The notes under the pieces: generated by a model | What the model saw: only the letters and a program-made list of their open reading frames with translations | Told to the model about the DNA's origin: nothing | Databases searched by the model: none | Origin: a bacterium | GTDB lineage: Bacteria; Planctomycetota; Phycisphaerae; Phycisphaerales; UBA1924 | Assembly (NCBI GenBank): GCA_024743075.1 | Contig: JANSXG010000017.1 | Span: forward strand, 1-33,391 | Direction of reading: 5' to 3' | Length of the DNA stretch: 33,391 nt | Program-made: the position numbers and the translations under genes | In this document: positions 2,688 to 13,983 of the stretch, piece after piece | How the letters are laid out: the number at the start of each line of letters is the position of its first letter | Position numbering within the stretch: the stretch's first letter is position 1

Positions 2688-5075
2688 TTAGTTGGTGATC
2701 GATCCGCTCGGCACCGTGGTGTCGTAGCGAACGCCGTCGGGCACGGGGACCGGGACAGGGACTGTCACGCCGTGGCTGCCCTCGGTGATCGTGAGTGAGT
2801 CCACCGCGACGAACGCCGTGTACGCGCTCATCAGGTTGTGCGCGAGTGCGACCCGTTCGATCTCGCCGGCGAGTCCGAGCTGCGTGTCCTGATCGCGAGT
2901 CCAGGTCATCTGTTCGGACAAGTCGGCGATCTTGGTACGCGCCCAGAGTGCGGCGAGGGCGTCGAAGCGTTCACCCTCGTCCGCTGCGTTCCGCACCGGG
3001 ATCAGCAGGCTGCGCTCTTCGCCGCCGAGGCGACCGTGCACGGCGATCTCGCGGGGGAGCGAGCCCTGGTATCGGCCGGTGATGATGACCGGGCGACCGG
3101 CGTAAAGGTCGGCCGGACGGCGCGGGTAGACACCGTCCACCTCCGCGCCCGCGAAGTCGATGGCGAGGTCGGTCATGGCGGGATGGCTGATCCGCTCGAA
3201 GAAGTCGTCCATGATGTCCACGGCTGGGTCGTTCAATCCGAGGAACGCGGCGCAGCCGTTGCCTAGCTTGGCCATGCGCTCGAGAAGGTAGCGGTTGGGC
3301 GAGCTGCCGACGCCGAAGGAGAAGATCCGCGCCGGTCCCAGCTTGTCGTGCACCGCGCCGAGGATCTGCGACTCGTTGCCGATGTACCCGTCGGTCAGGA
3401 AGACGACGTAGCGAAGGCGCTTGGGGTCGTGGGGGAAGTCGAGCGAGGCCTTTATGCCCTCGATCATCATCGTGCCGCCGCCGCCTCTGAGGCTCTCGAT
3501 GTAGTCCAGGCCGCGCTCGATGTTCCGCTGTGTCGCTTCGACGGGTTCGCTGCCCAGTTGCGAGGCGTTCGAGCTGAAACGGATGATCTGGAAGGTGTCG
3601 CCTGGTTGCATGGAGCGGAGGGCGCGGCGCATGGCGTTCTTGGACTGCTCCATCGGCTTGCCGCTCATCGAGCCCGAGCAGTCGAGCACGAAGACGAGCT
3701 CGACGGGCTGGCGCTCGAGGTAGCTGGCTTCTGCGGGCGGGACGAGCATCAGGCTGAAGATGCCGGTGCCGTCGCCGTTGTCGTGGGTGATGACGCCGCT
3801 TCGGATATCGCTGGAGGCGACCTCGTAGCGGAGCACGAAGTCCTTGTTGGGAATCGTGTCGGTGGACGCGAGGCGGACGGTCGCGCGGGTGGAGTCCGCG
3901 CGATCGACCTCGATCACGTGCGAGCGAGACGAGATGCGACCGATGGGCATGCCCGCGTCGATCTCAACGGTCAGGCCGATGTCGTGGCCGCTGCGCTCCT
4001 CGGGCGCGAGATAGCTGATCTGCGTGGTCTGGCCGGTCGCGCCCGGGTTGCTGCCGCGCGGCGCGGCTCCGATGCCGTCGGTCGATCCGGGAGGGTTGAA
4101 GCGGGGGCCGACGACCATCGGGAACACGAACTCCCACGCGTCGTTGTCGTAGCGGAGCGTCTGGAAGTAGGTGATGTCGATGTCGATGGTCTTGCCGGGC
4201 TCGATGTTGGCGACCTTCTGCGTGAAGATGTTCGGACGCTCTTGCGTCATGAGTGAGGCGACGTGACCACGGGCGCGGGCGTTCGCGTAGATCTCCTCGG
4301 CTTCCTCGCGTTCGCGGATGATGCCGCGGATGGTGCGGTCGCCGACGGTCATGAGGAACTCGTTGATCGCGCTGTTCTGGGGGAGCGGGAAGACGTAGAC
4401 CGCTTCGATCTTCGTGTCGAAGGGGTTGTGGAAGCGTTGCTGCACACCGACCGCGCTGATGTAGCCGCGGATGTCCGCGCCGACCTCGGTGTGTTCGAGC
4501 GGGATCGGGACCTGCTCGGTCTGACCGGGCACGATTCCGACGAGGCAGCCGGAGCCGGGGTCGTCGGGCGAGAGGGTGCGCGGGCGGGCCTGGCCGGTCT
4601 CGGGCGTGCGCGAGATGATCCAGAGTTCTTCGCCGGGAGCGTTTACGAATGAGGGAGAAACAGATTGGCCGTTGGGATGAGATCCGTCGCCGCCTCGGCC
4701 GGCTTGGTTCAGACCAGCACCCACGGAACGCTCAGACGCGCGGAGCGAGGCTCGGGCGTCGGCTGCAGGCGGCGGCGGGGGTGGGGTCCCCGGTGACAGG
4801 CTAAGGACACTGCCGAAACTGTCTCGTTCGCGCCGGAGGTGCTCGGGCCGCGGTGCAAGTTCGTAAAGGTATTGGCCTTCCTCGGGGGCGGCGTCCGCCA
4901 GTTCACCATCGGTTCCAGAAGCAACCGAGTGCTTGCGGACCGTCCCGACCTGCGAACTGCACGCGGCGATCACGCCGCCGATGGCTACGGCGGAGAGCAG
5001 CACCGAGGTGATGATGATCCTGCGTCGGCGGCTCGGCGCGGTGGGCGGGGTCGGTTTGTCGGGTGGCGTGGTCAT
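2688..5075 (-). CDS. VIT and VWA domain lipoprotein
   Basis: 795 residues. An Arg-rich start precedes a membrane segment and the lipobox IAAC (C39), so it is probably a lipid-anchored envelope protein. A low-complexity Pro/Ala/Ser linker (about 90-140) leads to a VIT domain (about 192-325). A VWA domain (about 457-630) follows, with an intact MIDAS: D465-x-S467-x-S469, T535 in GGT and D562 in LTDG. A C-terminal beta region follows. The order matches inter-alpha-trypsin-inhibitor heavy-chain-like bacterial proteins and the proteobacterial sortase-target VIT/VWA family, but no sortase or LPxTG tail is present. It is the last gene of the sigma-led operon, 48 bases after the small lipoprotein, with AAAGGAG before ATG. 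Role inferred: metal-dependent adhesion or complex assembly at the cell surface. Confidence 0.9.
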   Translation of the reverse strand: MTTPPDKPTPPTAPSRRRRIIITSVLLSAVAIGGVIAACSSQVGTVRKHSVASGTDGELADAAPEEGQYLYELAPRPEHLRRERDSFGSVLSLSPGTPPPPPPAADARASLRASERSVGAGLNQAGRGGDGSHPNGQSVSPSFVNAPGEELWIISRTPETGQARPRTLSPDDPGSGCLVGIVPGQTEQVPIPLEHTEVGADIRGYISAVGVQQRFHNPFDTKIEAVYVFPLPQNSAINEFLMTVGDRTIRGIIREREEAEEIYANARARGHVASLMTQERPNIFTQKVANIEPGKTIDIDITYFQTLRYDNDAWEFVFPMVVGPRFNPPGSTDGIGAAPRGSNPGATGQTTQISYLAPEERSGHDIGLTVEIDAGMPIGRISSRSHVIEVDRADSTRATVRLASTDTIPNKDFVLRYEVASSDIRSGVITHDNGDGTGIFSLMLVPPAEASYLERQPVELVFVLDCSGSMSGKPMEQSKNAMRRALRSMQPGDTFQIIRFSSNASQLGSEPVEATQRNIERGLDYIESLRGGGGTMMIEGIKASLDFPHDPKRLRYVVFLTDGYIGNESQILGAVHDKLGPARIFSFGVGSSPNRYLLERMAKLGNGCAAFLGLNDPAVDIMDDFFERISHPAMTDLAIDFAGAEVDGVYPRRPADLYAGRPVIITGRYQGSLPREIAVHGRLGGEERSLLIPVRNAADEGERFDALAALWARTKIADLSEQMTWTRDQDTQLGLAGEIERVALAHNLMSAYTAFVAVDSLTITEGSHGVTVPVPVPVPDGVRYDTTVPSGSITN

Positions 5076-5123
5076 GGTCGGGCTCCTTTGCTCGGGAGAA
5101 CTGGGGTGCAGCGTGCGCGGCGA

Positions 5124-5306
5124 TTACTTGTGCTTCGGGCCTTCGGTGCCGAAGGGGGTCTGAAAGTCTTTGGGGCCTTCGGAAGTCTCCACCGTCACAG
5201 TCCGGGCGGACGCGGCTTCGACCTGCTTGGGCTCGGCATCGCACGCGACAAGTGTGCAGGCGATAGAGAGCGTGGCGATCAGAACAAGGGGGCGGGTGCG
5301 AGTCAT
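5124..5306 (-). CDS. Small lipoprotein, unknown function
   Basis: 60 residues. The N-terminus MTRTRP, a hydrophobic stretch and the lipobox LVAC give a clear lipoprotein signal; the mature part is only about 38 polar residues rich in Glu, Lys and Thr. Its ATG overlaps the TGA of the preceding gene (ATGA), which implies translational coupling. GGGAG lies just upstream. It has no domain that I recognise. Its constant position between a cohesin-like protein and a VIT/VWA lipoprotein suggests an accessory part of the same envelope module. Confidence 0.75.
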   Translation of the reverse strand: MTRTRPLVLIATLSIACTLVACDAEPKQVEAASARTVTVETSEGPKDFQTPFGTEGPKHK

Positions 5307-5797
5307 GGCTGGACTCCCGGGCTGGAGGAGAGGAGGAAGGGGACACCGAACGCGTTGCCGTCGCGGTCAGTCGCGAGCGCTTCACGGACGATGATCAGTT
5401 GGACCGGCGCGGGCAGGTCACCCTCGCCGGTGATCTCGTAGTGGACTCTGGCGATACGCGAGCGACCGGTCGGCAGTTCCGGCGCGGTCGAGTACGCCGC
5501 GAGGATGACGCGTTCGTTGCCGATTGCCTGCGGGTCGTAGAACGGGGGCGTCTTGAACGCTTCGTGCTCGCCGCCCTCGATGCCGACCACGCGGACGCGT
5601 GTGGGCAGGTCGGGCAGGGGGGTGAGGTCGATCTGGTACGCGCCGAGTTCCGCGCCGTCCGGAATCTGCACGGCGATATCGAGCACGCCGAAGCGGACCT
5701 TTTCGGCGTCCTGTGTCGCGACGGCGTGCGCTCGGAAGCCGAACGCGCCGCACGAGAGCGCGATGAGTGCTATTGCGATGAGGCTGTGACGAAGCAT
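5303..5797 (-). CDS. Exported cohesin-like beta-sandwich protein
   Basis: 164 residues from the ATG at 5797, chosen because GGAAGGAG lies nine bases upstream and a signal peptide (LRHSLIAIALIALSCGAFGF) follows at once. An upstream in-frame extension overlaps the previous gene and looks non-coding. The mature part alternates short beta-like stretches: an opening strand (GAYQIDLTPL), a central VVGIEGGEHEAF, and a late RIARVHYEITG. This pattern resembles cohesin-type domains, which bind dockerins. The preceding gene, whose stop lies one base upstream, encodes a dockerin-like tail, which strengthens the reading. Similarity was judged by eye; a plain Ig-like or other beta-sandwich export remains possible. 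Confidence 0.65.
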   Translation of the reverse strand: MLRHSLIAIALIALSCGAFGFRAHAVATQDAEKVRFGVLDIAVQIPDGAELGAYQIDLTPLPDLPTRVRVVGIEGGEHEAFKTPPFYDPQAIGNERVILAAYSTAPELPTGRSRIARVHYEITGEGDLPAPVQLIIVREALATDRDGNAFGVPFLLSSSPGVQP

Positions 5798-5798
5798 T

Positions 5799-6590
5799 TC
5801 AGGATGCTCCTTCCGTATTGGGTTTGTCGGTGGTCGGTGGCGTGAGACGCACCGCCAGGCGGGCGATCGCGTCGGCATCGGCGCGGTCGAGGCGTCCGTC
5901 GGCGACAAGATCAAGCCCGGCGACGGCCGGCGTATCGCCGCGTTCGAGCGCTCGGGCGAGTAGCAGAGCATCAGCGATGGTGATCCTGCCGTCTGCGTCG
6001 AGGTCGCCGGGGAGTTCAGCGACTTTGAGCTGCAGGGGGGGCGCGTCCATCAGGATGGAGTCGGCGGACTCGACCTCGGCCAGATCGTTTCTGGCTCCGG
6101 AGCGCCTTGCGAGGGCAGACCGCTCGGGCATCGCCGGAGCTTCCATCGAACCGGCGGTTTCCGACGCGAGGTCAGCGCCAAGCGACGCAGCGGAAGGCGC
6201 CGCAGCGTCTTCGCTCGGCGGTGCTTGATCCATCGCGACCGATCGGCCGGCGGAAGGACCGGTTGAATTCGGGACACCGACGATCAAGGCGATCGCGAGC
6301 GACGCGGCGAGCAGAGCGCCGCCGATGCCGGCGCTGGTCAGCGGGCGACCGGTGATCCACGCGAGCACACCGGGCTTGAGTTCCCGGTGTGGCTGATCTG
6401 ATTGGTCCTTCGCACCGAACGAGGCAAAGTGTTCCGCCGAGGCACTGAGCACCCGTTCATCGACGCGGCTGGGCAGATCGACCTCATCCGGACGCAGGGC
6501 CTGACGCAGATCCGCCTCAAGCGGGCCGGGGAGGCTCTCCTCGGAGTTGGCCGGTCGTTTCGGATCGGGTTGTTCGGGAGGGGGGGTCAT
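5799..6590 (-). CDS. Single-pass membrane protein with dockerin-like tail, putative anti-sigma factor
   Basis: 263 residues in three parts. Residues 1-85 are polar and presumably cytoplasmic, with DLRQALRPDEVDLPSRVDER as the most structured piece. Residues 86-106 form one membrane segment. The rest is a flexible Ala/Ser region followed by a dockerin-like module: loop one (196-207, DLDADGRITIAD) has all EF-hand positions, and loop two (227-238) keeps D1, D5 and D12 but has Val at position 3. The gene follows the ECF sigma gene by 94 bases and precedes the cohesin-like gene by one. Position and topology are those of a transmembrane anti-sigma factor, as in clostridial RsgI proteins whose outer domains sense substrate. 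No ZAS zinc motif is visible, so the anti-sigma role is inference. Confidence 0.7.
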   Translation of the reverse strand: MTPPPEQPDPKRPANSEESLPGPLEADLRQALRPDEVDLPSRVDERVLSASAEHFASFGAKDQSDQPHRELKPGVLAWITGRPLTSAGIGGALLAASLAIALIVGVPNSTGPSAGRSVAMDQAPPSEDAAAPSAASLGADLASETAGSMEAPAMPERSALARRSGARNDLAEVESADSILMDAPPLQLKVAELPGDLDADGRITIADALLLARALERGDTPAVAGLDLVADGRLDRADADAIARLAVRLTPPTTDKPNTEGAS

Positions 6591-6684
6591 CGTCTGCTCT
6601 TTCGTGAAGGCATCTCGGGCAGCGGGAAGTTCGCGCCCGTCAAGAAAATCTTTGAATCGCGACCTATTGGTCTGAAATCAGGGC

Positions 6685-7239
6685 TTATGGGTCAATATCG
6701 AAGTACGCGCGACAGGCCGGCTCCTCCCGGAGTGCCCCGATCGCGTGGTGCAGCCGGGACTTGACCGTCCCGAGCGGGATGCCCAGAGCCAGAGCGATCT
6801 CGTTGAGCGACATGTCATCGAGAAATCGCATAAAGACGACCTCTCGCTGGTGCTCCGGCAAGGTGCCAAGAATCGATCGAAGGCCGTCGAGCCTGTCGGG
6901 TTCCGGCTCTGAGTCGGTCTCATCCGCGGAATCGGTCTGCGGACCGCTCGGCGTCTTGCGTCGGCGTTTGCGGTCGGCGCTTTGGGCGTTGTGCTTGACG
7001 ACGGGGTAGAGGAAGGTCGTCAGTTTGGCCTGCAGTTCGAAGCCGGGGAACTTTTTGAGCAGGTAAAGAAACGAGTCCTGCACGGCGTCGGCCGCGAGGC
7101 CCTCGTCGCGACCGGTCTCACGCAGGGCGAGCCGGAAGGCCCAGTCCTTGTAGCGCTGGTAGAGGGTATCGAACGCCGCGGCTTCGCCGGCGTTGGCCCG
7201 GTCGACGAGCTGCTGGTCTGTCAGGTCGGTCAGTTGCAC
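6685..7239 (-). CDS. ECF-family RNA polymerase sigma factor
   Basis: 184 residues. Sigma region 2 lies at about 22-90 (AFDTLYQRYKDWAF; AVQDSFLYLLKK). A charged linker (about 95-118) leads to sigma region 4 (about 120-172), with LPEHQREVVFMRFLDD and the helix-turn-helix MSLNEIALALGIPLGTVKSR. Length and the absence of regions 1 and 3 fit extracytoplasmic-function sigma factors. The start is GTG at 7239 with GGGAG five bases upstream. It heads the operon that ends with the VIT/VWA gene and probably drives it. The 48-base gap to the deacetylase gene upstream shows no clear promoter, so read-through from there is possible. Confidence 0.93.
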   Translation of the reverse strand: MQLTDLTDQQLVDRANAGEAAAFDTLYQRYKDWAFRLALRETGRDEGLAADAVQDSFLYLLKKFPGFELQAKLTTFLYPVVKHNAQSADRKRRRKTPSGPQTDSADETDSEPEPDRLDGLRSILGTLPEHQREVVFMRFLDDMSLNEIALALGIPLGTVKSRLHHAIGALREEPACRAYFDIDP

Positions 7240-7287: not shown

Positions 7288-8217
7288 TCAGGACGCGGGC
7301 TGTGGGGACGAGATCAGTCCGAGCGAGGCGGCAGCCCGGTGCATTTCCGCGTGCAGGTCAGCGGTCAGCTCGGGCGTGGCGGCGTACCCGCCCCCGAGCA
7401 ACAACACAAGCGGAATGCCGCGTTCGGCCACGGACCGGATCACCCGCTCGTCTCGTGCCCGCAGGCACCCGCGGCTCACGTTCAGGCGACCGAACTTGTC
7501 GCCTTTCACGATGTCCACGCCTTGCACATAGAACACGATGTCCGGCTCGGATTCGTTCAGGGCCGACGGTAAGTGCGTGTCGATAGCCCTGAGATAGTCC
7601 GCATCTTCCATGTGGTCGGGGAGCGGGACATCGCGGGTCGAGCGCTCCTTGCGGAGAGGGAAGTTCTTCTCACCGTGAACGGAGAAGGTGTAGACGCTCT
7701 GGTCGTGCTCGAAGATCTTCGCGGTGCCGTTGCCCTGATGGACGTCAAGGTCGATGACCAATGCTCGCCGGATCAGGCCGGATTCCTGCAGGAACCGGAT
7801 CGCAATGGCGGTGTCGTTGAGGACGCAGAAGCCCTGGGCGTGGTCGGGCATGGCGTGGTGCGTGCCGCCTGCGAGATTGCCGGACACGCCGTCTTCGAGA
7901 GCCATCCGCGCCGCGTTGACCGTGCCCTGAACCGCGAGCCGGGAGCGTCGGACCAATGCCTGGGTCCAGGGAAAGCCCATCCGGCGGATGGCGGACATGG
8001 CCATCGAGCCGCAGCGGAGCGACTCCAGATAGCTCCGGGTGTGAACGAGCCCGAGCAGGTCCCAGTCGGCCTCCTCTGGCGCGACGATGTTGTCGGGGCT
8101 GACGATCGCTTCCTCCACGAGCAGGTCCCGCAGCGCCGAAAACTTCGGCATCGGGAACGAGTGCCGGGGGGGCAGTGGGATCACATAGTCTTCGTGGTAA
8201 CTGACGCGCACGGGCAA
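7288..8217 (-). CDS. Histone-deacetylase-family Zn-dependent deacetylase (AcuC/HdaH type)
   Basis: About 309 residues, the usual length for bacterial class I/II HDAC-like amidohydrolases. Conserved blocks are present: GGTHHA (active-site His pair H120/H121), GFCVLND, DLDVHQGNGT with Zn ligands D158 and H160, then GVDIVKGDKFGRL with the third Zn Asp, and a C-terminal LLGGGYA. The family removes acetyl groups from lysines or acetylpolyamines; the substrate cannot be told here. Start is uncertain: TTG at 8217, or GTG at 8211 if the TACACT at 8217-8222 is a -10 element, which would make the mRNA leaderless. No Shine-Dalgarno is near either. Confidence 0.92.
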   Translation of the reverse strand: MPVRVSYHEDYVIPLPPRHSFPMPKFSALRDLLVEEAIVSPDNIVAPEEADWDLLGLVHTRSYLESLRCGSMAMSAIRRMGFPWTQALVRRSRLAVQGTVNAARMALEDGVSGNLAGGTHHAMPDHAQGFCVLNDTAIAIRFLQESGLIRRALVIDLDVHQGNGTAKIFEHDQSVYTFSVHGEKNFPLRKERSTRDVPLPDHMEDADYLRAIDTHLPSALNESEPDIVFYVQGVDIVKGDKFGRLNVSRGCLRARDERVIRSVAERGIPLVLLLGGGYAATPELTADLHAEMHRAAASLGLISSPQPAS

Positions 8218-11866: not shown

Positions 11867-12493
11867 ATGGCGGAGCAACTCGCGCCCATCGAAGAAGACC
11901 TCTGGGAGCTCGCGCTCGCCTGCACGAATCGCGCTTCCGGGGCGGCGCGCGTGGTCGCCTCCATTGCGCGCGATCACCCCGATCTTGGCCGCGTTTCCGA
12001 GGCTCGACTGCGAAGGGAAGCGCTGGTCCGAGCGAAACTCTGGGGTGTCCGGCCGGAGTCCGGCGCGGAGGCGCCGGTGTGCCCGACACTCGAGCCGCTC
12101 GGCCTGATCCAGCGTGCGTGCCTGTGGCTCGAAGGCGGTGCCGGCCTGAGCGTCGCCGAGATCGGGTGGATCTGTGAAAGCGATGCGGCCGCGGCCCGAA
12201 GGACGCTCGATGAGGGGCGGTCCCGCCTCGGTGGTGAGTCGCGAGCGATCGCTGATGATCTCCGAGTCTGTTTTGATGCGCTCGATCGCGCCGAACTTTT
12301 GAATCGGCTTCACACCGCCCGCGACGCGGCACGGCGCAGAGAGAAGCGAAGCGGCATGCTGCTCGCAGGCGCGCTGGCGGTGTTCGTCGTGCTGATGACG
12401 GTTGTCCTGTTCGACCTCCTCAGCTGGCAGGATGCCAGCCAGACCCTTCCGAGCGGGGACAATCCGCCGGCAACCGCGGACCCGTTGCCGTGA
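11867..12493 (+). CDS. Membrane-anchored protein with sigma region 4-like helix-turn-helix
   Basis: 208 residues. Residues 78-121 (QRACLWLEGGAGLSVAEIG, then ARRTLDEGRSRL) match the spacing of a sigma region 4 / LuxR-like helix-turn-helix: the 'L.YVEGLS.AEIA.IL...AV...L..GR..L' pattern of ECF factors. No region 2 is seen; the N-terminal 70 residues (DLWELALACTNRASG) could be a degenerate remnant. One membrane segment lies at 163-185, followed by a short polar tail. A DNA-binding-like domain tethered to the membrane suggests a regulator held at, or sensing, the membrane. Its TGA overlaps the GTG of the kinase gene (GTGA), so the two are translationally coupled. Assignment is by pattern only. 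Confidence 0.7.
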   Translation: MAEQLAPIEEDLWELALACTNRASGAARVVASIARDHPDLGRVSEARLRREALVRAKLWGVRPESGAEAPVCPTLEPLGLIQRACLWLEGGAGLSVAEIGWICESDAAAARRTLDEGRSRLGGESRAIADDLRVCFDALDRAELLNRLHTARDAARRREKRSGMLLAGALAVFVVLMTVVLFDLLSWQDASQTLPSGDNPPATADPLP

Positions 12494-13383
12494 AGCGTTC
12501 GCGTCCGACCCAGGCGACCGCGAGGATCCGGCGCAAGCTGATCGTGCTCCACACGGTGTTCTCGCTCGCGCTCACGGTGATCATCATTCTGTCCGTGCGC
12601 GTGTCGATGCTCGAGCTTGTCACGCGCTCGGAGCAGCAGGAGTGCCGACTCGCGCTCGGTCTGCTGCTCGCCGATGCGGATCGCGCGCGAGAGCAGGCGG
12701 GTGGAATCGACTTTGCGGTCTACTCGTCCTCGCCTTCGATCATCCCCCTGGATCTGCTCGAACAGGTCCAGCGCGAGGCGGGCGAGATTATCGATGGACG
12801 CGACGTCCGAGGACGCCCGATCGCCGCGGTGCAGCGCCCATCCGACAACCAACTGGTCGTCGCCACCCTGCGTGAGAGCGCGGGTCAGGAAGCCATCACT
12901 CGCATGTACATCCTGCTCGGTGCCGCTCTACTCGGCGTATACGGCGTGATCGCGCTGACGCTCGAAGTGTTCGTACTCCCATCGCAGGTGTACCTGCCGA
13001 TCGAGCGTCTCCGGCGCGCCGACCTCGCGGTGCAGGAGGGGCGACAGGAATCCGAACTGATCCCGGAGAGCGAGATTCCGAACGACGAACTGGGCGAGAT
13101 CATGCGCAGCCGCAACCGGTCCATCCTCAAACTCCGCAGTCAGGAACGCGACCTCAACGACGCGCTGGAAGAGCTCGAATCGGTCGCGACGGAGCTGAAG
13201 CGCAAGAACCACATGCTCGAAACCGCGCGGCGCAACCTCGCCGACCAGGACCGCCTCGCGAGCCTCGGCATGATGAGCGCGGGCATCGCCCACGAGCTGA
13301 ACACACCCCTCGCGGTGCTGAAGGGGAGCGTGCAGCAGTTCGACGAGCACGCTGTTACCGAGTCCCATCGACCGCGACTCTAA
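12490..13383 (+). CDS. Histidine kinase N-terminal part (sensor, HAMP, first HisKA helix)
   Basis: 297 residues from the GTG that overlaps the previous stop. An Arg/Lys-rich start and TM1 (about 17-37) lead to a ~100-residue outer domain, TM2 (about 139-163), HAMP (about 165-215), and a coiled coil with heptad Leu (about 216-255). The H-box LASLGMMSAGIAHELNTPLA follows, with H268. The chain ends 29 residues after the His, inside the loop between the two dimerisation helices, so this polypeptide alone could not form the usual four-helix bundle or bind ATP. Confidence 0.6.
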   Translation: MKRSRPTQATARIRRKLIVLHTVFSLALTVIIILSVRVSMLELVTRSEQQECRLALGLLLADADRAREQAGGIDFAVYSSSPSIIPLDLLEQVQREAGEIIDGRDVRGRPIAAVQRPSDNQLVVATLRESAGQEAITRMYILLGAALLGVYGVIALTLEVFVLPSQVYLPIERLRRADLAVQEGRQESELIPESEIPNDELGEIMRSRNRSILKLRSQERDLNDALEELESVATELKRKNHMLETARRNLADQDRLASLGMMSAGIAHELNTPLAVLKGSVQQFDEHAVTESHRPRL

Positions 13384-13395
13384 ATAATAAAGCGA

Positions 13396-13983
13396 GTGGT
13401 CGGCAGCCTGGAACTACTCTGTGAATCGCTGATCTATATCTCGCGGGCACGGGAGCCTTCCCGTACGCCGCTTCACCTCCGAGAAATCGTCGAGGAGTCG
13501 TGGACGCTTGTCTCGCTCGACCGCGATGCCAGGGCCATCGGGTTCACCAACTCGCTGAACGATGCGACGGAGGAGCAGGTGCTCGGAGACCCGGATCGGC
13601 TGACTCAGGTCTTCGTGAATCTGCTTCGCAACGCGGTCGACGCGCTCGACACGGGTACCGGCCCTCGCGGCAGCATCCGGGTGTCTCACGAGATCATCGA
13701 GCGGGAAGGGGCACGCTGGATCAGCGTTCGCATCACCGATGACGGACCGGGCATCGATCCGGCGGTGCTCCCGCGTCTGTTCGAACCCTTCGCATCGACC
13801 CGCCTCGACAGCCACGGCACCGGCCTCGGCCTCGCCGTTGCCGAGGGCATCATCAAGGAGCACGGCGGCGTGCTCATCGCCGGCAATCGGCCGGGACCGG
13901 ATACCGGTGCGATCTTCGAGGTCGTGCTCCCGGTGAAGGACTGTCCGCTGTTTGAACCATCGGAATCGTGTCCGAGCCCCTGA
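13396..13983 (+). CDS. Histidine kinase C-terminal part (second HisKA helix, ATPase domain)
   Basis: Same frame as the upstream half, starting after TAA ATA ATA AAG CGA at a possible GTG. No Shine-Dalgarno precedes that GTG, so independent translation looks weak. The sequence holds the second dimerisation helix (VVGSLELLCESLIYISRA), the N box (QVFVNLLRNAVDAL), the G1 box (DDGPGID), the F box (LFEPFAST) and the G2 box (GTGLGLAVAEGI). The HATPase domain is intact, so if joined to the upstream half the kinase should be active. It is followed 60 bases later by the receiver-XRE gene. Confidence 0.6.
   Translation: MVGSLELLCESLIYISRAREPSRTPLHLREIVEESWTLVSLDRDARAIGFTNSLNDATEEQVLGDPDRLTQVFVNLLRNAVDALDTGTGPRGSIRVSHEIIEREGARWISVRITDDGPGIDPAVLPRLFEPFASTRLDSHGTGLGLAVAEGIIKEHGGVLIAGNRPGPDTGAIFEVVLPVKDCPLFEPSESCPSP

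Follow-up and report, generated by a model that had tools for sequence, protein, structure and literature searches.

Five genes in a stretch of 33,391 nucleotides from a bacterium of the order Phycisphaerales (UBA1924; assembly GCA_024743075.1, contig JANSXG010000017.1; hereafter the window) raised the question of why a dockerin and a cohesin-like protein should be encoded together with a sigma factor. In order of transcription the genes encode the sigma factor (SIG), a membrane protein carrying the dockerin (TMD), an exported protein with a cohesin fold (COH), a 60-residue lipoprotein (LIP) and a lipoprotein with VIT and VWA domains (VWA). The initial annotation suggested that the set is a calcium- and metal-dependent surface adhesion or assembly complex under its own sigma factor. 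Our analysis retains the module itself, a sigma-linked dockerin, a true cohesin fold in the predicted structure and a VIT-VWA protein kept as a conserved unit without a sortase, but not adhesion or assembly as its main role. We consider it probable that the module is a dedicated extracytoplasmic function (ECF) sigma and anti-sigma regulatory system, laid out like RpoE-RseA-RseB. We would also give an even chance to the idea that docking of the cohesin on the dockerin serves as a transmembrane signalling gate in several phyla unrelated to the cellulosome producers, with the dockerin as the anti-sigma receiver and the cohesin as a periplasmic co-regulator.

All five open reading frames were found on the minus strand where they had been placed, with the ATGA overlap at 5306-5303 and the single spacer base at 5798. 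SIG (6685..7239, 184 residues, GTG start) matches Pfam Sigma70_r2 (5e-9) and Sigma70_r4_2 (6e-15) and contains sigma-70 regions 2 and 4 only, which identifies it as an ECF sigma factor. A module-specific hidden Markov model (HMM) gives 179-260 bits for the sigma factors at module loci and approximately 20-103 bits for ECF sigma factors outside the module. TMD (5799..6590, minus strand, 263 residues) has cytoplasmic residues 1-87 (6590-6330), one transmembrane helix (TM) at residues 88-106 (6329-6273) and a Pfam Dockerin_1 domain at residues 194-243 (6011-5862). The same layout of approximately 65 residues, a basic stretch, one TM, a linker and a carboxy-terminal dockerin is constant in 73 sequences, and the cytoplasmic part carries a conserved LPxxL...VPxxVDxxIL...AR segment. 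In these sequences the 15 residues preceding the TM have a net charge of +4.1, against +0.1 after it, and the amino-terminus is therefore predicted to face the cytoplasm. With a gene that adjoins that of an ECF sigma factor, a single TM and a predicted cytoplasmic amino-terminus, TMD has the layout of an ECF anti-sigma factor.

A profile of the cytoplasmic segment and TM alone was searched in 121 whole genomes. Apart from TMDs and fusions of TMD with COH, it matched 12 proteins that do not belong to the module. Eleven of them are encoded immediately after an ECF sigma gene, on the same strand; in the remaining one the matched stretch contains two stop codons. Adjacency to a sigma gene by chance is expected at approximately 1%, the source genome having 24 sigma-70 region 2 matches in 3.36 Mb. 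The 11 sigma-adjoining proteins differ in their outer parts, and one (L194) is a zf-HC2 anti-sigma protein. NCBIfam 'anti-sigma factor' models match L188, L189, L193, L194, L196 and L198, and the anti-sigma model NF052375 is also matched, weakly, by 10 of 27 TMDs. At L197 and L199 (G037:C4) an ECF sigma gene is followed by a large protein in which an anti-sigma-like amino-terminus and TM are joined directly to VIT-VWA. It is mainly because the profile finds such anti-sigma-like neighbours of ECF sigma genes that we call TMD a probable anti-sigma factor, an argument by association.

COH (5303..5797, minus strand, 164 residues) is exported, with a signal peptide at approximately residues 1-30, and its residue Q55 is invariant. 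It gave nothing significant in sequence-only searches of Pfam, NCBIfam and the PDB, and the Pfam cohesin family PF00963 matched none of 35 COH members; a locus search using the full COH alignment returned no conserved stretch. Its identity was settled by fold and profile-profile comparison alone. The AlphaFold2 model, built with 43 homologues, has a mean pLDDT (predicted local distance difference test) of 84.3; for the greater part of the mature domain the values are 88-98. In a Foldseek comparison of this model with the PDB the top 11 matches are all cohesins, and in VIA-align solved cohesins fill ranks 1-45 (Z 9.8-6.9, 110-124 residues aligned), the best non-cohesin having a Z of 6.3. Comparison by hhalign with 30 planctomycete PF00963 domains gave a collinear alignment with a probability of 95.6, and structure comparison of a second, distant COH (L088) likewise pointed to a cohesin. 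The model and the profile comparison thus agree, though no Pfam or NCBIfam model matches, and they justify the earlier description of COH as cohesin-like; in its modelled structure the protein has a true cohesin beta-sandwich fold. By eye, a PF00963 cohesin from the same phylum (L138, G307:C362) resembles COH (RIILAGFHTAPEM...VAVVKF) and is a possible evolutionary bridge to it.

The dockerin at the other end of the pair is more readily recognised. In the window TMD it matches PF00404 with an E-value of 1e-5 and 26.1 bits, above the gathering score of 22.9, as the initial annotation had led us to expect. Matches at E<=1 were obtained for 24 of 27 TMD family members (best 2e-10), and the PDB profile matches of the family are dockerins. 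One detail of that annotation needs correction, as loop 2 of the window dockerin has a valine at position 3, where the calcium ligand is lost. Across the family the loop-2 ligands are nearly invariant (aspartate in 67/67, 66/67 and 67/67 sequences). The repeat-1 helix, DA-F-x-L-A-R, is kept more widely than the loop-1 ligands, which are gone in L041, L050, L065, L067 and L068. The source genome has 18 dockerin matches in total; on a cursory look, seven of the others are without the DAxxLAR helix and mostly have a DLNxVL-type helix instead.

To what extent do these genes belong together? Within the order, COH is present in 51 of 301 genomes and 39 of 148 genera. We assembled 40 neighbourhoods from this search and 44 loci of a separate collection, and scanned them in six frames with HMMs for the four proteins SIG, TMD, COH and VWA. 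COH was found in 85 loci including the window, or 74 distinct loci once 11 that had been fetched twice were set aside. TMD lies directly upstream on the same strand in 84 of the 85 (74 distinct), often overlapping; the sole exception, L098, has just 845 bases upstream. All four genes occur in order at 71 loci, co-directionally in 61 and with the sigma gene divergent in 10, nine of which are Planctomycetia-type and the tenth (L052) from the window's own family. Carriers of the module include Phycisphaerae, Planctomycetaceae, Fuerstiella, Verrucomicrobiota, Candidatus Fermentibacteria and Candidatus Krumholzibacteriota, together with two records labelled Acidobacteria and Kuenenia whose labels may be wrong. 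Many bacteria of marine and fresh waters carry the module, and the named loci all come from metagenome-assembled genomes. In the reciprocal search from VWA, SIG, TMD and COH adjoin it in all four genomes at >=50% identity (G005, G355, G482 and G488), and none of the four genomes at approximately 40% identity carries the other module genes. Together with the locus counts, this shows that the module is defined by its own subfamilies and is not a chance neighbourhood. The initial annotation had proposed a five-gene order. For the sigma factor, TMD, COH and VWA this order is kept far beyond close relatives, across Planctomycetota, Verrucomicrobiota, Fermentibacteria and Krumholzibacteriota, but no homologue of LIP (5124..5306, minus strand, lipobox visible in the translation) could be detected at the 84 related loci. 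Four genes rather than five make up the conserved unit, and LIP is a local addition outside it.

Several observations suggest that COH binds the dockerin of TMD. The TMD stop and COH start codons overlap in most loci (ATGA or TGATG), and natural in-frame TMD-COH fusions occur at L059 (g38), L065 (g13), L068 (g121), L190 (g13) and L191/L200 (g86), joining dockerin and cohesin in at least three genera. In these fusions COH sits on the dockerin side of the membrane; in L191/L200 the dockerin is no longer recognisable. We also made a joint AlphaFold2 model of dockerin and COH from L088, in which the intervening TGA was translated as tryptophan, so that the join is artificial. The dockerin has a pLDDT of 86-96, COH 90-98 and the linker below 50, and the predicted template modelling score (pTM), an indirect measure of placement, is 0.69. 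Approximately 65% of the residues in the chain are ordered; the larger domain alone, unplaced, would give a pTM below approximately 0.5, and a value near 0.69 would be expected if the two domains were placed relative to each other. This check of the interface is suggestive only. The evolutionary distances of the four proteins correlate for all pairs (r 0.36-0.48), which shows co-inheritance and not specific coevolution of dockerin and cohesin. It is also conceivable that the partners have diverged, leaving the dockerin as a mere folded spacer while COH acts alone, and the loss of the loop-1 calcium ligands in the five TMDs named above would fit such a history. We regard this as highly improbable in view of the strict linkage, the fusions, the conserved helix 1, the near-invariant loop-2 ligands and the pTM of the joined model. 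In the fused L065, L068 and L190 the calcium loops of the dockerin are lost and helix 1 is kept, as if tethering had eased the need for tight binding.

The last gene of the module encodes VWA (2688..5075, minus strand, 795 residues), with a VIT domain at residues 193-303 (Pfam VIT, 4e-34) and a VWA domain at residues 459-611 (VWA_3, 3e-18). The metal ion-dependent adhesion site (MIDAS) had been annotated as intact, and its residues D465-x-S-x-S, T535 and D562 are in fact invariant in 65/65 homologues; a lipobox is seen in the window protein and in many of these. VWA shares the VIT and VWA architecture of TIGR03788, a family of marine proteobacterial sortase-target proteins, but its 488 bits lie under the family cut-off of 551.65 and the genome is without a sortase. 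The absence of a sortase, first noted for the window, extends to the whole source genome, which is 91.5% complete. No member of the VWA subfamily occurs anywhere in the genomes G164, G086 and G110, just 25-31% relatives are left in G059 and G057, and the subfamily has been lost in some lineages with TMD-COH fusions. VWA is therefore accessory, either as an upstream sensor or as an output.

These properties of VWA bear on whether the module is an adhesion or assembly complex of the envelope after all. TMD would then be an anchor whose dockerin holds COH, VWA would be adhesive and the sigma factor would merely switch the operon on. The dockerin, the cohesin fold, the invariant MIDAS and the resemblance to sortase-target proteins would all suit such a complex. 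Yet COH is one small domain without a further binding module, some lineages keep the sigma factor, TMD and COH but lose VWA, and TMD has a conserved cytoplasmic half of the anti-sigma type. Because this half, with its TM, is of that type, we find a transmembrane regulatory role likelier than a scaffold, and consider an adhesion or assembly complex unlikely.

We also asked whether a promoter precedes the sigma gene. The sequence GAACYTT occurs upstream of SIG in 9 of 65 loci against 1.2 expected, and GAAACTT in 6 loci against 0.3 expected, in both cases mainly in Verrucomicrobiota and Planctomycetia; both resemble the -35 box of ECF promoters. In Verrucomicrobiota a sequence of the type TGAACCTTTT...CACTTAA is shared by L073, L074, L079, L085, L087 and L093 and is likely to be a promoter, and L073 and L074 also carry the candidate promoter sequence GAACCTTTT. 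A clear sigma-dependent promoter is not seen in the window, which counts against another arrangement, that of an assembly checkpoint. Here TMD would again be the anti-sigma factor, the cohesin-VWA complex would be the regulated product and its state of assembly would feed back on its own expression. The genes do share an operon, the G037 protein joins an anti-sigma-like amino-terminus to VIT-VWA, and the 10 divergent loci keep TMD, COH and VWA together opposite the sigma gene. Even so, such a checkpoint has in our estimate a rather small chance of being correct.

Some results weigh against a sigma and anti-sigma system as well. Single TMDs match anti-sigma models weakly and under the curated cut-offs: the 10 matches to NF052375 reach 2.4e-4 at best, below its cut-off, and the window TMD matches no anti-sigma model. 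The E-values of the amino-terminal matches outside the module range from 2.5e-6 to 8e-4. VWA can be absent (L047, L059, L065) and so is not essential to the core. A motif scan upstream of the sigma genes gave no promoter common to all lineages, and the window has just a weak GAAC...CGAC upstream of SIG. Finally, the joint model has an artificial linker and its pTM is indirect.

The layout we favour, that of a sigma and anti-sigma system, has a well-known counterpart. In Escherichia coli the rpoE-rseA-rseB operon encodes the sigma factor RpoE, the anti-sigma factor RseA and RseB, which binds RseA at its periplasmic end. By analogy, the cytoplasmic segment of TMD would hold the sigma factor at the inner membrane, and the dockerin would be its sensor end on the far side. 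Exported COH would dock there as RseB does on RseA, presumably in a calcium-dependent way, and VWA, a probable metal-dependent accessory in the same compartment, would supply or receive the signal through ligand binding at the MIDAS. Altered occupancy of the dockerin by the cohesin may then change the stability or conformation of TMD and free the sigma factor. The module resembles RpoE-RseA-RseB in its order of sigma factor, anti-sigma factor with one TM and exported soluble partner, here predicted to bind the outer domain, and in the GGAACTT-like boxes of some lineages. It differs in its dockerin and cohesin pair and in its fourth gene, and Pfam scans of COH and TMD members revealed no similarity to RseA or RseB.

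The nearest published case of sensor modules on an anti-sigma factor is the biomass-sensing SigI-RsgI system of Clostridium thermocellum and Acetivibrio, in which a sigma factor is likewise paired with an anti-sigma factor that has one TM and an outer sensor module (PMC3413522, PMC6056542). The RsgI sensors reported there are carbohydrate-binding modules, PA14, glycoside hydrolases or of unknown type, and the available text of these reports mentions no dockerin that acts as sensor with a cohesin of its own (PMC3413522, PMC6056542). As in cellulosome pairs, the module dockerin has F-hand repeats and COH a cohesin fold, but there is a single cohesin, no scaffoldin and no enzyme in the operon, and COH escapes PF00963. 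We rejected a cellulosome on the grounds that there is no scaffoldin, no PF00963 cohesin in the source genome and one cohesin-fold gene per conserved operon; dockerin-bearing hydrolases were not searched for genome-wide. The 'planctosome' proposed for Nemodlikiaceae (Phycisphaerae), a model that places multidomain proteins and peptidases at the outer surface, also has non-cellulosomal cohesin and dockerin modules, but these belong to other proteins and the accessible text gives no account of the present operon (PMC6461901). A search of the open-access literature, with subscription papers outside its scope, found no description of the module.

Non-cellulosomal cohesins and dockerins occur in many genomes, mostly without an assigned function. 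Here each partner is encoded by a single gene, the pair is physically linked to a sigma factor and natural fusions exist, so that the function of such a pair becomes directly testable. A protein-protein docking module would join the list of anti-sigma sensor domains, and the COH family, which has no Pfam model, gains a fold and a candidate role. These findings suggest a use in gene control for the 'glue' of cellulose-degrading machines.

Two further features of the window lie outside the conserved module. Just upstream of SIG, on the same strand, is a gene for a histone-deacetylase family protein (7288-8211). On the plus strand, a histidine kinase at 12490-13983 is seemingly split, with HisKA truncated where 12490-13383 ends and HATPase_c in 13396-13983; the cause may be a frameshift or an assembly error, or the split may be genuine.

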